A stretch of DNA of 64,000 bases from Persicimonas caeni. GTDB taxonomy: Bacteria; Myxococcota_A; Bradymonadia; Bradymonadales; Bradymonadaceae. Location: contig NZ_CP041186.1 in assembly GCF_006517175.1 (NCBI RefSeq), forward strand, positions 1 to 64,000. Direction: 5' to 3'. A program made the position numbers and the translations under genes. The notes under the pieces are model-generated. The model was not told the origin of the DNA. It saw only the letters and a program-made list of their open reading frames with translations, and searched no databases. Below are positions 7,446-15,054 of the stretch, piece by piece. The first letter of the stretch is position 1. Each line of letters begins with the position of its first letter.

Positions 7446-8011
7446 CTGGACGCATTGCCGATACGCTGCGATGCCCGCGGGGGTGCCTCCGCCCCCCGGC
7501 CCCCGCTGCTTCGCCCACTCGACCCAATCATCGAGGAGGCGTGGGGACATTCGAGTTTGGTGGCCTTGCTAGCGAGCGACGCCTGCTACATAGGGCGCCC
7601 TGAACTGCGGGCGTTAAGGACATAGGGGCTGCGTGTTGCGAGAGGTTCCAGGTTGCCGACCTGCGAGTTGGAACCACCTCGCGACTCGCAGCCCCTATGT
7701 CCTTAATTGCTTATGTAGCAGGCGTTTCTCACCTCGAGGCCCACACAGGACAGCTACCACGGTCAGGCGCACGGGCACAAAATGAACTCACAGCCGACGC
7801 AACCACTTGTGTATGCCCATGAGGCGCTAAGCAACTGGGGCCTTTATGGTTTGTTCTAGCAGCATTGGTGCATTGTTGTAGGTTCGCCGCTGAACCACTT
7901 CTGATAGGCCGACCATATAGGCCCCCGCTGCTTCGCCCACTCGATCCGAATCATCGAGGAGGCGTGGGGGCATTCGAGTGGGAGGAGCGTCCAGAAAGAA
8001 AAGAGGATGTA
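7446..8011. mobile_element. Gene-free region with two degraded IS ends
   Basis: Bases about 7451-7556 resemble the transposase-proximal end of the IS at 12477-15054 (CGCATTGCCGATACG and CGATGCCC instead of GGCATTGCCGGTCAG and CGATGCCC). A second related end occupies about 7848-7979; its left part matches bases 12550-12632 of the intact IS (CTTTATGGTT and GGCCGACCATATAGGCCCCC). A 59/60-bp block is thus directly repeated at 7498-7556 and 7920-7979. The 145-bp palindrome lies between them. Bases 7725-7847 show nothing recognisable. Confidence 0.75.
7580..7724. repeat. 145-bp long imperfect palindrome
   Basis: Outer arms CGCCTGCTACATA (7580-7592) and TATGTAGCAGGCG (7712-7724), a perfect 20-bp inner pair (7614-7633 with 7687-7706) and a GGTTCCA/TGGAACC pair (7644-7650 with 7669-7675) would fold the whole stretch into one hairpin. 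There is no coding content. It could be a MITE-like or REP-like element, or an RNA hairpin. Confidence 0.85.
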
Positions 8012-8629
8012 ATGATTGTGTTCGACCAAAAACAAACCGGGCACAAAGCCTGGAAATCATTACTTCCGGAGACGATCATGCCAGCCACTCGCCTCAATGT
8101 CCGCCTCCAAACGCTCGATCTTTCTGAGCCGCGGCGAGCAGTACCCGCCGATTTCAATGAATATATCGTTGCCTGCGCGCATCTGCGCGGTGAGGGTATC
8201 CTCGATGCGATCGAGCAGCAGTTTCGGCTCGACCGCGGCGGCTACCAATTTGTCGACGCGGTGCTGGCGGGGCTGGCTTTTTTCAGCGCCCAGCCGACCT
8301 ACTCGGGGCTTCGCGGGATGCTAGACGAGGTCAATGACCGTGGTTGATCGCTGGCCCTGGCGGCGGCCGAGGGCCGAGACAGGCTTCGCAGCCAGGCTTC
8401 GATGTCACGCGTGCTGGACGACATCCCCGACGAGATGGCGTGTCGATTCACCGAGCAGCTGCTCGGGGAGTGGACCCCGCCCGCAGCTCTTTCGGCCTAC
8501 GAGGGCGTGCGGTGGCGCGATTGCACCGGCCAGCCCTGGCACGGCTTCGCCATCGATGGGCGCGTGCAGCCCTTTCGACGCCGGGCGCTGTGCGAGGGCG
8601 AGGAGTATCCGCCCGCCCATAGCCTTTGA
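8012..8629 (+). pseudogene. Truncated DDE transposase, relic of the IS at 12477-15054
   Basis: From ATG 8012 (GAGGATGTA upstream) the protein matches the first roughly 205 residues of the intact transposase (MIVFDQKQTGHKAWKSL versus MILFDQKQTGHKAWKSL). An in-frame TGA at 8345-8347 replaces the Trp codon found in the intact copy (GRGW). The frame then resumes without a shift (SMSRVLDDIPDEMACRF) and stops at 8629 just after EEYPPA, where homology ends; about 545 C-terminal residues are missing. It is therefore broken twice. Bases 8630-8769 show no further IS sequence. Confidence 0.93.
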
Positions 8630-8769
8630 GCGATGGAAACTCAATTACGGATTTCGTTTACGGAAGGAGGCCCTCGTAGGCGAACGGCGGCCCCAGTCTT
8701 CTTGCCACCTCCCCGCGCCAACGGCTAAAACCAGCGCAGTCGACATCCCCTCTTTCCAAGGAGTTCACC

Positions 8770-10308
8770 GTGCCCCACAAAAGCCTCACCCTGCTGCTCA
8801 CCACCGCCCTACTCACCCTCGCCGCCTGCGCCTCGAGCCCTGCCGAGCAACCAGACCAACAGGACAAGGAGCAACAAACGATGCCCGACGCCACCCAGCA
8901 GCCGTCCCTCGAGGGCACCTGGCAAGGCCCGTTGACCGTCCCCGGCGCCCAACTCACGCTCGTCTTTCACCTCGACAAGACCGACGACGGCACCTGGAAC
9001 GCCACAATGGATAGCCCCGACCAGGGCGCGACGGGCATCCCCGTCTCGGCCGTCGAGCACGACGGCGACAAGGTCACGATCGCCGTGGTGAGCATCGGCG
9101 GGGTCTTCACGGGCACGCTCTCGGACGACGGAACCGCCATCGACGGCGAGTGGTCCCAGGGCAGCTCGTCGCTCCCGCTCGACCTCGAGCGCACCGAGGC
9201 CAAAGAGGCCAAAGGAGTCAACCGCCCGCAGAATCCCGAGCCGCCCTTCCCCTACACGGTCGAAGAGGTGAAATTTGCCGGCGGCGAGCCGACGAAGGGA
9301 ACCGCCGACGCGGTGCAGCTCGCGGGGACGCTGACCTTGCCCGAGGGCGAAGGCCCGCACCCGGCGGTCGTGCTGCTGACCGGCTCGGGCCCGCAGGACC
9401 GCGACGAGGCCCTCGCCGGCCACAGGCCGTTCTGGGTGCTCGCCGACTACCTGACCCGCCACGGCGTGGCCGTGCTGCGCTTCGACGACCGCGGCGTGGG
9501 CGAGTCGACCGGCACGTTCGAAGACGCGACCATCGCCGACTTCACCCAGGACGCCATCGCCGCGGCCGAGTTCATGGCCCAGCGCGACGACATCAAGGCC
9601 GACGCCATCGGGCTCGTGGGCCACAGCGAGGGCGCCAACGTCGCCCCGCGGGCGTCGAACGCCTCCGACAAGGTCGCCTTCATCGTGCTCCTCGCCCCCA
9701 CCGCGGTGCCCGGCCACGAGCTCCTCGCCCGCCAAAACCGGCTCGTCTTCGAGGGCTTGGGCATGAGCGCCGAGGGCGCCCAGACCTACGAGAAGAACAT
9801 GCACGCCGTGCTCCGTAAGATCGTCGCGGTGCCCCTCGACAAGCCCGTCCCTGACGAGCTTCGCAAGGAGCTTCGCGCCGACTTCAACGCCGCCATCGAC
9901 GCGATGAGCCCCGAAGACCTCGCCGTGTACGGCGTCGTCGACGACAACACCCGCAAGGTCGTCCTCGACCAACTCGTCGGACAGCTCACCAAGCCGTGGA
10001 TGCGCTCCTTCTTGGCGATGACGCCCCAGAAGACCTTCCAGAAGGTCGACGTCCCCACACTCGCCCTCTTCGGCGCCAAGGACGTGCAAGTCTCCTCCGA
10101 GCAGAACGCCCCCGTGCTCGAAGAGGCGCTCGGCGACGACGCCGACGCGACGGTCGAGACCCTCGAGGGCCTCAACCACCTCTTCCAGCCGGCAAACACC
10201 GGATTGCCCGCCGAGTACTCGCAGATCGAGACGACGCTCTCGCCGAAGATGCTCGAGACGCTAGTGCAATGGATGGCGGAAAAAGGATACGCGGAGGCGG
10301 GCGAGTAG
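8770..10308 (+). CDS. Lipoprotein alpha/beta hydrolase (serine esterase/peptidase-like)
   Basis: It starts with GTG at 8770 behind AAGGAG (8758-8763). The 512-residue product has a signal peptide with lipobox TLAAC, so it is probably membrane-anchored in the envelope. Residues about 45-135 form a beta-rich domain (LEGTWQGPLTVPGAQ) seen at the N-terminus of some secreted hydrolases. The rest is an alpha/beta hydrolase: oxyanion region LLTGSGPQDRDE, nucleophile in GLVGHSEGAN, acid probably in LFGAKDVQ, and His in GLNHLFQP. The substrate is unknown. It is flanked by IS remnants on the left and the RAYT unit on the right. Confidence 0.9.
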   Translation: MPHKSLTLLLTTALLTLAACASSPAEQPDQQDKEQQTMPDATQQPSLEGTWQGPLTVPGAQLTLVFHLDKTDDGTWNATMDSPDQGATGIPVSAVEHDGDKVTIAVVSIGGVFTGTLSDDGTAIDGEWSQGSSSLPLDLERTEAKEAKGVNRPQNPEPPFPYTVEEVKFAGGEPTKGTADAVQLAGTLTLPEGEGPHPAVVLLTGSGPQDRDEALAGHRPFWVLADYLTRHGVAVLRFDDRGVGESTGTFEDATIADFTQDAIAAAEFMAQRDDIKADAIGLVGHSEGANVAPRASNASDKVAFIVLLAPTAVPGHELLARQNRLVFEGLGMSAEGAQTYEKNMHAVLRKIVAVPLDKPVPDELRKELRADFNAAIDAMSPEDLAVYGVVDDNTRKVVLDQLVGQLTKPWMRSFLAMTPQKTFQKVDVPTLALFGAKDVQVSSEQNAPVLEEALGDDADATVETLEGLNHLFQPANTGLPAEYSQIETTLSPKMLETLVQWMAEKGYAEAGE

Positions 10309-10339
10309 CTATTGGAGGCCACGTCGAGCTCGCCTCTTG

Positions 10340-10427
10340 ATAAGCGGAGGCGAAGCCGAAGCGCCACCCCTCGGAGCGTAGCGTAGAGGGGTCTCTGTAG
10401 CCGGGTGTGACCGTAGGGAACGCCCGG
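10340..10427. repeat. Left 88-bp inverted repeat of the RAYT unit (REP-like)
   Basis: It is the near-exact reverse complement of 11100-11187, running from ATAAGCGGAGGCG to GGGAACGCCCGG. It contains its own small hairpin, ACCCCTC...GAGGGGT. It lies about 120 bases upstream of the HUH transposase start. Confidence 0.9.
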
Positions 10428-10546
10428 AAAAAGAGCCCCCTACACCCCACCAGAGGGCGATTCGCAAAAAAGTACGCAACAAATCGCCTCCTTTTGCCGA
10501 AAACCAAAGTAGAGGGTTTTCGTCATGTTCGACTTTCGGAGGAGAT

Positions 10547-11191
10547 ATGCCTTACACCAGACTTCGCTACCACTTCATCTTCGCCACCAAAAACCGTGCC
10601 CGTTGGATTTGGCCTGATGTCGAGTCATTTCTGTACCCAGTCCTCGTGCGGCTCATCAAGCGTGCCGGGGGACACGCCATTCGCCTTGGTGGAGTCGAAG
10701 ACCACGTCCATATCGTCAGCGCACTGGAGCCGAAAGTTTCGGTAAGTGACTTTTTGGAGCGCATCAAGTCGGAGTCATCACAGGCAGTACGTGGACGATT
10801 TAAGAACCTGTGGGGATTCGGTTGGCAGGATGGCTACGGAGCGTTCACTCTGAATCCGACCGATATGGACCGCATCCTCGAGTACGTGGAGAACCAGAAA
10901 GAGCATCATCGGACCGGAAACCTCTGGCTGCCCTACGAGAAGCTTGCGGATAAACTCGTAGGTCCGGATGGACTACCAGCGAACAAGGCGCCTTCCACGT
11001 CGGCTCGACCAATCGTGTCACGTGGACTTCGACGCCAGCACCATCGACTGGCCCGCCAAATGTGGGGTGCGTCATGGTGGACTGAGGTGAGCTCAAACTC
11101 CGGGCGTTCCCTTCGGTCACACCCGGCTACAGAGACCCCTCTCCGTTTCACTTCGAGGGGTGGCGCTCCGGCTACGCCTCCGCTTATCTAA
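10547..11191 (+). CDS. HUH (Y1) transposase, IS200-like / REP-associated
   Basis: The start at ATG 10547 has GGAGGAG just upstream. The Y1 transposase domain occupies about residues 1-130: YHFIFATKNRARW, the metal-binding HUH pair H53-V-H55 in EDHVHIV, and the catalytic Tyr probably Y113 in LEYVENQKEHHR, preceded by GWQDGYGAFTL. These enzymes cut and join single-stranded DNA at hairpins. The family is usually about 150 residues; this frame runs to 214 and its last roughly 30 residues are read from the right inverted repeat, so the natural stop may have been lost. No partner tnpB is present. Confidence 0.92.
   Translation: MPYTRLRYHFIFATKNRARWIWPDVESFLYPVLVRLIKRAGGHAIRLGGVEDHVHIVSALEPKVSVSDFLERIKSESSQAVRGRFKNLWGFGWQDGYGAFTLNPTDMDRILEYVENQKEHHRTGNLWLPYEKLADKLVGPDGLPANKAPSTSARPIVSRGLRRQHHRLARQMWGASWWTEVSSNSGRSLRSHPATETPLRFTSRGGAPATPPLI
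11100..11187. repeat. Right 88-bp inverted repeat of the RAYT unit (REP-like)
   Basis: Reverse complement of 10340-10427 with only a few mismatches, clustered in the internal hairpin loop (CCGTTTCACTTC here). It overlaps the last codons of the transposase frame. Confidence 0.9.
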
Positions 11192-11193
11192 GA

Positions 11194-11262
11194 GCAAGCC
11201 GAAGCGCGAGTCTTTAGCAAGCCGAAGCGCGAGTCTTTAGCAAGCCGAAGCGCCGGCGAGTA
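11194..11262. repeat. 23-bp tandem repeat beside the right inverted repeat
   Basis: Units starting at 11194, 11217 and 11240 (GCAAGCCGAAGCGCGAGTCT plus TTA, third copy partial) follow the RAYT unit directly. The core AAGCCGAAGCGC also occurs inside the left 88-bp repeat, so the array probably expanded from REP-like sequence. Confidence 0.85.
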
Positions 11263-12476: not shown

Positions 12477-15054
12477 GTAGGCATTGCCGGTTCGTGACGA
12501 TGCCCCCGGCCGGCCTTCGCCGGCCGCCCCCCGCGCGGAGCGGCGGGGGGCTTTATGGTTGCTCTAGCAAAAGTGGTTCAGAGATGAACCTTCGAGAACC
12601 GACCACTTCTGATAGGCCGACCATATAGGCCCCCGTTGCTTCGCCCACTCGATTCGGATCACCTATTCGCCTTGTTTTGAAAGGGGGGATCCGATGCGGG
12701 GGTATTTGCCTCCGGTAAAAGACGTGCGGCAGTTAAGGGGGCTCTGATGGCGATTGTTATGTTGGCCTGCTGGGGCAGGCTGTTCCACTGTAGCCGCTCG
12801 TCCCAGGTTTTCCGGCGTCGCTGGCGACGTGCGGCGGTCATCGCCAGATAGTCTACGTGGCGAGTTGAGGAATCCGGTGGAGATTTTGTCACCTCGACCT
12901 TGAGGCTTCGAGCAGCTTTTCGAAAGGCGTTGCGAAAGGTGCTTGCGACCAGTACCGGCTGACGCATGTGGAGGTCGCCGGGTTCGGGCAAGTCGTCAGG
13001 AATCGACAGTCTAAGCCCTAGCAGGGCCGTTGAGGGCGACGCCTTATCAGCGGGATCACTGCCATGCGTCGGCGCGTCAGCGGCCTTATCTTGGCCTTGG
13101 ATCGCAGCTGGCTCATCGTGCGCACCCAGCGTGGCTGGCGGCGGCATGTGAATCTCGATCTCTTTTCTGTAGGTCGGCGACGTCGACGAGGTGCATTCGC
13201 GGCGGAAGGGGCAGCCCTGGCAGGCTTGTGGGGAGCCGATGCGGAATCTGACGATCACACGGCCGCCGCGCTGGCGCATTCCGGACAGGCCCAGATAGGC
13301 GCCTTTCGCACAGCCGATCTGGCGGGTTTGAGCGTCATAGCTGAATCCATCGAGCCCACCGATGCGCTGCTCGACCTTTCGGGTGACACTCTGCCACCAG
13401 GCGTGCGATGCCTCGAAGCCGACGGCGAGCGAGGCCGGCTCCGGACGGCCTGCCGCTGGGGCTGCGTGGGGTGCGGGGGCACCGGTCGGCGCGAGCGGCA
13501 GCGTGTCGGCCGATTCGAGCTTGCGCGGCGCAGCCTCGACGTCGATAGGCTCGAGCTCGCCGAAGAGCTCGGCGCCCCTAATAGCCCTGAAATTGTGTAG
13601 CCAAACCCCCAGCGCCATCATGACCTGCTGGCCGGGCGCGCAATCCGAGTACATCTTCTCCAGATCCATGTGCCGATCGAGTCGGGCAAAGCCGTTTTCC
13701 TGGCGGCCGGCCCGGGCGTAGTAGGTGGTGACGACTTCTGCGGCCGGATAGGCCGTCGGGTCGAGATCGCAGGCGTAGACCTCGTACTGAAGCCCGTCGA
13801 CAAAGCATCCGGCGCCGCGCTTCTTGCCGTCGGTCGGCTCAAAGCAGCTGACCACCAGCCTGGCCCGGGCGTCACCAAGCCAGTAGTCGCCCATTTCGGT
13901 CGCCCAGCGCTGGGGGCCGCTTCGGGAATCGTCGACCTTCTGCCATGTCTGCTGGGCCAGCTGAGCGCGCACCGCAGGATCTTTGAGCGGCTCGTAGTAA
14001 CGAAGCCGGGTCAAAAAGTGCACCGGCGAGCGAAGCGCCGCGCGCAGCTGGGCAAACCCTCCCTGGTGGCCGTCGATGGCCAGAAAACACCGGCCGGGCT
14101 CGAGCCCGCGGGCGTTGGCCCATCGCTCTATCAGTGCCAGGCCCTGCGCAAAGTCATCGCTGAGCTGGCCGTTTCCGGCCGCATAATTCATCGCCAGATA
14201 AAGCCCGCTTCCCAGATGCTCCAAGATCGACGTCTCCATCTGGACGTCGGCGCGCTTTCGGCCCGAATAGCCCGGTTTGGCGCCCAAGCTGTCGACCCGA
14301 CGGCGGGCGGGCGGGTACTCCTCGCCCTCGCACAGCGCCCGGCGTCGAAAAGGCTGCACGCGCCCATCGATGGCGAAGCCGTGCCAGGACTGCCCGGTGC
14401 AATCGCGCCACAGCACAGCCTCGTAGGCCGAAAAAGGCGCCGCCGGGGTCCATGCTCCGAGCAACTGCTCTTTGAATCGACACGCCATCTCCTCGGGAAT
14501 GTCGCCCAAAACGCGCGACATCGATGCCTGGCTGCAAAGCCTGTCTCGCCCCCCTGCCGCTGCCAGGGCCTGCGACCACCCTCGGCCATTGACTTCGTCG
14601 AGCATCCCACGAAGCCCCGAGTACGTGGGCTGGGCGCTAAAAAAGGCCAGCCCCGCCAGCACCGCGTCGATAAACTGGTAGCCGCTTCGGTCGAGCCGAA
14701 ACTGCTGCTCGATCTCGTCGAAAATGCCCTCACCGCGCAGATGCTCGCAGGCTACGATATACTCGTTGAAGTGAGCGGGCACTGCTCGCTGCGGCTCGGA
14801 ACGCTCGTGATTTTGGAGGCTGACATTGAGGCGAGTGTCTGGCATGATCGTCTCCGGATGTAATGATTTCCAGGCTTTGTGCCCGGTTTGTTTTTGGTCG
14901 AACAAAATCATTACATCCTTTTTGTTTTCTTGACGATCCTCCCGATCGGTCGCCCCCCACGCCTCCTCGCTGATTCGGATCGAGTGGGCTTCGCACGGGG
15001 GCCGGGGCGGCGAAGGCCGCCCCGGGGGCATCGTGACTGACCGGCAATGCCTAC
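12477..15054 (-). mobile_element. Apparently intact insertion sequence with one DDE transposase
   Basis: Terminal inverted repeats are GTAGGCATTGCCGG at 12477-12490 and its complement at 15041-15054; similarity continues inward through GACGATGCCCCCGG. Both ends also share a subterminal block (CTTCGCCCACTCGATTCGG and its relative). The single gene fills most of the 2.58 kb. I see no clear target duplication. The right end lies 10 bases from the tspO stop codon. Confidence 0.88.
12659..14911 (-). CDS. DDE-type IS transposase, 750 residues
   Basis: The start at ATG 14911 is preceded by AAAAAGGATGTA; the longer frame to 15031 is IS-end sequence. The N-terminus carries helical DNA-binding sequence (YSGLRGMLDEVNGRGWSQAL, MSRVLGDIPEEMACRF). 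Candidate acidic residues lie in LWRDCTGQSWHGFAIDGR, FLAIDGHQGG and around YYARAGRQENGFARLDRHMD. A Cys cluster CQGCPFRREC sits about 590 residues in, recalling IS1182-like zinc motifs, but I cannot assign the IS family with confidence. The C-terminal 150 residues are low complexity and basic. A decayed relative lies at 8012-8629. Confidence 0.9.
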   Translation of the reverse strand: MILFDQKQTGHKAWKSLHPETIMPDTRLNVSLQNHERSEPQRAVPAHFNEYIVACEHLRGEGIFDEIEQQFRLDRSGYQFIDAVLAGLAFFSAQPTYSGLRGMLDEVNGRGWSQALAAAGGRDRLCSQASMSRVLGDIPEEMACRFKEQLLGAWTPAAPFSAYEAVLWRDCTGQSWHGFAIDGRVQPFRRRALCEGEEYPPARRRVDSLGAKPGYSGRKRADVQMETSILEHLGSGLYLAMNYAAGNGQLSDDFAQGLALIERWANARGLEPGRCFLAIDGHQGGFAQLRAALRSPVHFLTRLRYYEPLKDPAVRAQLAQQTWQKVDDSRSGPQRWATEMGDYWLGDARARLVVSCFEPTDGKKRGAGCFVDGLQYEVYACDLDPTAYPAAEVVTTYYARAGRQENGFARLDRHMDLEKMYSDCAPGQQVMMALGVWLHNFRAIRGAELFGELEPIDVEAAPRKLESADTLPLAPTGAPAPHAAPAAGRPEPASLAVGFEASHAWWQSVTRKVEQRIGGLDGFSYDAQTRQIGCAKGAYLGLSGMRQRGGRVIVRFRIGSPQACQGCPFRRECTSSTSPTYRKEIEIHMPPPATLGAHDEPAAIQGQDKAADAPTHGSDPADKASPSTALLGLRLSIPDDLPEPGDLHMRQPVLVASTFRNAFRKAARSLKVEVTKSPPDSSTRHVDYLAMTAARRQRRRKTWDERLQWNSLPQQANITIAIRAPLTAARLLPEANTPASDPPFQNKANR

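Follow-up and report, generated by a model that had tools for sequence, protein, structure and literature searches.

A probable REPtron-like unit formed by an IS200-side HUH transposase of TnpA_Y1 subclass 1.2 and its flanking hairpin repeats in Persicimonas caeni

A lone Y1 HUH transposase gene that lies between two inverted hairpin repeats in Persicimonas caeni raises the question of whether the enzyme and the repeats belong together, as in a REPtron, or whether their proximity has another origin. The source genome (G000) is a single contig of 8,047,206 bp, and the window, by which we mean the whole stretch of DNA analysed here, comprises its first 64,000 nucleotides. Within it, two 89-bp modules (10339-10427 on the plus strand and its inverted copy, 11100-11188, on the minus strand) stand on either side of the Y1 ORF. 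These modules are 91% identical over a 96-bp stretch, and the ungapped inverted match of the two arms amounts to 125 nt at 82%, which is far above chance. An earlier sequence-only reading had described such a near-identical pair, measured there as 88 bp, with an ACCCCTC/GAGGGGT hairpin in each repeat; both are present, and two further hairpins had gone unmentioned. In the left module, the three hairpins are a GGC-GAA-GCC mini-hairpin (10349-10357), the ACCCCTC/GAGGGGT hairpin (10366-10392), and a hairpin of the form CCGGGTGTGACC-GNA-GGGAACGCCCGG (10401-10427) with GTAG at its 5' foot (10397-10400). All three recur in the right module, where GTAG occupies 11130-11127 on the minus strand, so that the GT[AG]G at the palindrome foot that is typical of the REPtron layout is found on both sides. 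Next to the right module, a plus-strand tandem array of 23-bp units (AGCAAGCCGAAGCGCGAGTCTTT; 11193-11261; two identical, one at 74%) has a AAGCCGAAGCGC piece in common with the module. Elsewhere in the window, a 790-aa DDE-type transposase ORF (12659-15031) matched IS1380/IS1182 weakly, with scores below cutoff, and on the opposite side of the Y1 unit, about 5 kb away, lies a broken copy of this gene (7865-9014).

The tnpA ORF itself (10547-11191, plus strand) encodes 214 aa and carries the residues that had been proposed for it, namely H53-x-H55 (10703-10711) and Y113 (10883-10885). Its conserved core spans aa 1 to about 136, and its assignment as a Y1 HUH transposase of the subclass-1.2 type rests on Pfam, NCBIfam, PDB relatives, motifs and the tree. 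Since relatives end at about aa 134-142, residues from about 137 to 214 represent a read-through extension of the frame across the spacer and the right module (10955-11188). The right repeat is therefore read through by the transposase frame, as had been suggested, although it lies wholly rather than partly inside the ORF. No tnpB-like ORF was found among the ORFs between the two modules, in agreement with the earlier statement. A small codon-usage gene finder did not detect host-like codon use in tnpA, and because of this and the 70-odd extra residues the gene may be decaying or newly arrived.

We then considered to which class of Y1 enzymes this protein belongs. It matched Pfam Y1_Tnp with 85.5 bits and passed the NCBIfam IS200/IS605 model (72.8, cutoff 55), while failing the REP-associated transposase model NF047646 (20, cutoff 80); its closest relatives of solved structure were the ISDra2 and IS608 TnpA proteins. 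Its motifs EDHVH, GWQDG and YVENQKEHH match the DH[IV]H, WQ and Y---Q--HH signature of TnpA_Y1 subclass 1.2 (Table 1, PMC6006769), and the single copy and the lack of tnpB agree with that subclass as well. In the tree, the window tnpA fell on the class-1 (IS200) side, with class 2 splitting off at 100/100 and the class-2 genes of the same genome far away, while subclass 1.2 was not resolved as a single clade apart from 1.1/IS200. A canonical class-2 RAYT (Y---NP) was rejected on the YVENQ motif and the profile score. The suggestion that this locus is a RAYT-based REPtron thus stands for the layout (one tnpA, inverted GTAG-tagged palindromes, dispersed extragenic copies) and falls for the protein. 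Subclass 1.2 has been reported as low-copy, without IS ends or REPs, and mostly from Cyanobacteria and Bacteroidetes (Quentin et al. 2018, PMC6006769); the absence of REPs is an observation on the 2018 sample and no membership criterion, and it is contradicted here by the dispersed copies and the flank-repeat analysis presented below. The same genome also contains a class-2 Y1 gene of 320-330 aa in about 19 copies (L027-L045; NHFH, YIVCNP or similar), at least two of which (L039 and L041) lie between inverted repeats containing GTGTCNGACACC.

A whole-genome search for the module, which had been proposed as a check, returned dispersed extragenic copies alongside a single transposase gene. The module occurs at about 16 further places, with identities from 92% down to about 70%, whereas tnpA is single-copy and its nearest homolog in this genome is only 51% identical. 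None of the dispersed copies overlapped a gene predicted by the codon-usage gene finder, which left just 12% of random 90-bp window segments entirely noncoding. As in a REPtron, cognate repeats are thus scattered through intergenic DNA, though in low number, and about 16 places is far below the copy number of classical REPs. Matches of 43-45% to the C-terminus of tnpA in tblastn are best explained by the shared module. The possibility that the dispersed units are internal deletions of the tnpA gene was rejected, as their spacers were by eye without similarity, and no empty site was found.

The dispersed copies are also informative about structure. All 20 proposed base pairs hold in all 8 distinct copies and 7 of them changed on both sides, while sliding the partner by 1-3 columns left pairing in 31-51% of cells. 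A-type and B-type copies even exchange whole arms (CCCC/GGGG with CCGGG/CCCGG, and ACCCCTC with ACCCGGC). DNA folding gave -18.9 kcal/mol for the GTAG-bearing strand versus -14.8 for its complement; since the folding z-score of a single module copy is modest (-1.6), the case for module structure rests on the covariation.

How these copies spread is a separate matter, and one that bears on the earlier proposal that the protein disperses the palindromes. Four of the best module copies are inverted A-B pairs within a longer unit of about 397 bp that is bounded by CTTMCCCACAA terminal repeats, and variants of this unit include one with an internal deletion and two short A-only versions. Perfect 10-bp target duplications flank two of the units, GGGTTCACCC at 4.65 Mb and GGACAAGCCC at 6.63 Mb, and at 4.65 Mb the uninterrupted target sequence is visible in an adjacent tandem copy of the target. 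These two units (at 4,648,713 and 6,625,910; positions 1471-1868 of L004 and L007) are inserted into loops of GC-rich palindromes. Y1 enzymes make no target duplications, and the copies of the 397-bp unit were therefore probably moved by some other transposase. As most of the closest module copies sit inside this MITE-like element, their spread is no evidence for movement by the window protein, and some of the observed dispersal is probably the work of another enzyme. One could go further and regard the modules altogether as a DDE-type MITE family, with the Y1 gene having merely landed between two of them without any functional tie. The units with outer repeats and 10-bp duplications at 4.65 and 6.63 Mb would fit such an origin. 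However, outer terminal repeats are missing from the window pair and from the copy at 4,088,891, and the window does not contain the core of the outer repeat. Moreover, the 51% homolog, like most of the relatives from other phyla, is flanked by hairpin repeats of its own that differ from those seen here, which makes a chance landing very unlikely in our view.

We considered about 100 relatives, taken partly from this family and phylum and partly from named genomes representing some 12 phyla, and set the flank-repeat threshold at the 99th percentile of mismatched-locus pairs. With this threshold, the upstream and downstream flanks contained a matching inverted or direct repeat in 71 of 101 relatives. 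Cross-phylum flank controls also score high, since hairpin modules are similar between phyla, and mismatched-locus controls were used in addition. Matching flank repeats were absent in about 30% of the relatives, including L069, L071 and L077 from the same family. None of the six Bacteroidota-type loci and one of the five cyanobacterial/Chloroflexota loci had clear flank repeats, and as Bacteroidota and cyanobacterial members are mostly without them, this may explain the earlier report of no REPs in subclass 1.2. Part of the flank-repeat sharing could reflect local duplication of hairpin DNA. In L076, L054, L081, L068, L079 and L191, two long and nearly identical direct repeats of roughly 200-350 bp enclose tnpA, as if it had been inserted beside, or duplicated with, the repeat unit.

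The repeats around these relatives have a common design, the typical module consisting of a hairpin, about 10 nt, a (G/T)TAGCC-hairpin, about 25 nt, and another hairpin. When all 4-mers at hairpin feet were compared, the strongest excess on the inward strand was found for GTAG (21-fold), TTAG (26-fold) and ATAG (14-fold), and TAG ranked first of the 64 trimers. A strict perfect-stem filter retained a tagged foot in 26 of 98 loci, and permitting a 0-2 nt offset and shorter stems raised this to 42 loci. Hairpins with 3-nt loops were 2.5 times denser near tnpA than far away, and C-GNA-G loops or their complement made up 195 of 448 such hairpins near tnpA versus 22 of 359 far away. Loops on the TAG strand were of the GNA type in 111 cases and of the TNC type in 16. 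C-GNA-G is a very stable loop in DNA mini-hairpins, and since these loops are biased to the TAG strand, they point to this strand, in single-stranded form, as the substrate. This has consequences for the idea that the modules are transcription terminators or structured RNA and not DNA substrates. Stable hairpins in intergenic DNA would be expected from such elements, and the covariation suits RNA as well as DNA, but an Rfam search of the module gave no match, the enriched and strand-biased triloops are of the DNA-stable type, and the TAG-type foot is itself unpaired and conserved. We therefore regard an RNA-level function of this kind as highly improbable.

Each tnpA further appears to have its own repeat family. 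On either side of the 51% homolog in this genome stands a different repeat, GGTAGCCCCGGGCGACCGAAGGGAGTCCGGGG, of the GGTAGCC-hairpin family, which is found at roughly a dozen other places in the genome; several of these copies are inverted doublets that end at the hairpin, with unrelated flanks and no common outer repeat. In G008 and G141, the tnpA flank repeats likewise recur at a handful of other sites, and relatives within one genome are divergent rather than near-identical copies. These observations also bear on the view that the locus is an ordinary single-gene insertion sequence of the IS200/IS605 family with ends that are hairpin-rich by chance. The NCBIfam match above cutoff, the structural kinship with the IS608 and ISDra2 transposases and the hairpins at both ends are all compatible with it. 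Yet there is one copy in 8 Mb, multiple near-identical full-length copies were not found, the ends are long inverted repeats instead of same-strand hairpins, and solo modules and inverted doublets are dispersed without tnpA. Adding the subclass-1.2 signature and the divergence of relatives within a genome, we consider an ordinary insertion sequence unlikely and rejected it on copy number and end polarity.

Comparison with known Y1 systems leads in the same direction. IS608 and ISDra2 share with the window protein the HUH fold family, the Y---Q motif and, as predicted from sequence, the recognition of hairpins near the ends; in IS200/IS605 elements, however, both end hairpins act on one strand in excision and the elements are multicopy, in contrast to the inverted arrangement of the modules and the dispersal of solo modules seen here. 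The class-2 TnpA_REP/RAYT REPtrons of E. coli, Pseudomonas and Stenotrophomonas resemble our unit in that a single-copy Y1 HUH gene stands between inverted palindromes whose foot is of the GTAG type, that further copies are scattered outside genes as singles and doublets, and that each transposase has a separate repeat family. They differ in protein class (Y---NP as opposed to Y---Q--HH of class 1), and in that the repeat is here an 89-bp module with three hairpins whose copies number tens and not hundreds. In TIRtrons/TIRYTs, too, long inverted repeats, some of them genome-repeated, enclose a Y1 gene, but most TIRYTs belong to class 2.1, and what their TIRs have in common is GGGGWSAS rather than GTAG hairpins (Di Nocera et al. 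2013, PMC3733652). Subclass 1.2 as described (PMC6006769) agrees in DH[IV]H, WQ, Y---Q--HH, length, low copy number and lack of tnpB; unlike in that description, the gene is here accompanied by cognate hairpin repeats, in Myxococcota of the Bradymonadales type as well as in PVC bacteria and Acidobacteria. Cognate REP-like repeats in a subclass reported to have none are the new point of this study.

Inside the unit, between the left module and tnpA, lies a promoter-like motif, ACGCAAC-N15-GCCGAAAAC (10474-10504, plus strand). Its exact form has 55 matches in the genome (reversed control: 7 at up to two mismatches), and the degenerate form ACGCAAC-N15-GCCGA[AT]AAC has 63 sites (reversed control: 0). 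Of the 27 Y1 genes, which include both classes, 26 have the motif upstream (hypergeometric p about 2e-53 over 6009 genes, a value inflated by paralogs). It was also found upstream of recA, ssb, dprA, a ComF-family gene, a ComM/YifB-type ATPase gene and a YraN-like gene, as well as FliP- and FlhA-type export genes and a FliA/WhiG-type sigma factor gene (3,547,257); of these, the FliA/WhiG, ComF and YraN matches fell short of the curated cutoffs for their families, and the FlhA-type gene was identified by visual inspection. Genes of unclear function with the motif encode DUF559 (4), GxxExxY (2) and four-helix-bundle (2) proteins (sites at 788,435; 3,112,485; 5,932,259; 6,940,057; 3,525,979; 6,216,402; 3,653,859; 4,099,610). 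Among other genomes, G008 has 12 sites, which by eye precede comEA-, dprA- and comF-like genes, export genes and two Y1 genes (at 1,280 kb and 2,525 kb), and the sites in G019 (9) and G096 include a subclass-1.2 tnpA; the motif is absent upstream of all four subclass-1.2 genes of G008.

These genes may form a competence/export/HUH regulon. We take GCCGATAA to resemble a sigma-28 -10 element, and control would then lie with a FliA-like sigma factor and be timed with predation or DNA uptake. Persicimonas caeni is a predatory species (PMC7188933), and export-apparatus genes of B. sediminis were reported to rise during predation (PMC7460792). We tentatively suggest, with somewhat more doubt than confidence, that Bradymonadales-type predators keep HUH transposases of both Y1 classes in a dedicated FliA-like-sigma regulon together with type III export genes and competence/recombination genes (recA, ssb, dprA, comF and comM, with a comEA-like gene in a sister genus). 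The transposases would hence be made during uptake of foreign single-stranded DNA, for instance in predation, and could act on it or insert hairpins into it.

Altogether, we consider it likely that this locus is a REPtron-like unit around an IS200-side HUH transposase of TnpA_Y1 subclass 1.2 that acts on cognate hairpins; it would work like a REPtron without membership of the RAYT class, the activity of the enzyme being a prediction from its sequence. Most likely, the enzyme would bind a single-stranded DNA hairpin whose 5' foot carries a TAG-type guide (here GTAG at 10397-10400 and 11130-11127), and Y113 would nick beside the tagged hairpin and join the ends. As the modules are inverted, a given strand has the tagged hairpin at only one end. 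DNA with cognate hairpins would be copied or moved in this way, either singly or as inverted pairs. Expression of tnpA would probably be driven from the motif at 10474-10504, and because recombination and competence genes have this motif in common, the enzyme may be active when single-stranded DNA is abundant.

On this reading, REP-type systems would reach beyond the RAYT class into the IS200 side of the Y1 family, with members in the PVC bacteria, the Acidobacteria and the Myxococcota. Subclass 1.2, which was reported to lack REPs, would gain a likely substrate. This would bear on how REP systems arose from insertion sequences, and the shared motif suggests a specific answer, open to testing, to the question of when such host-retained transposases are expressed.
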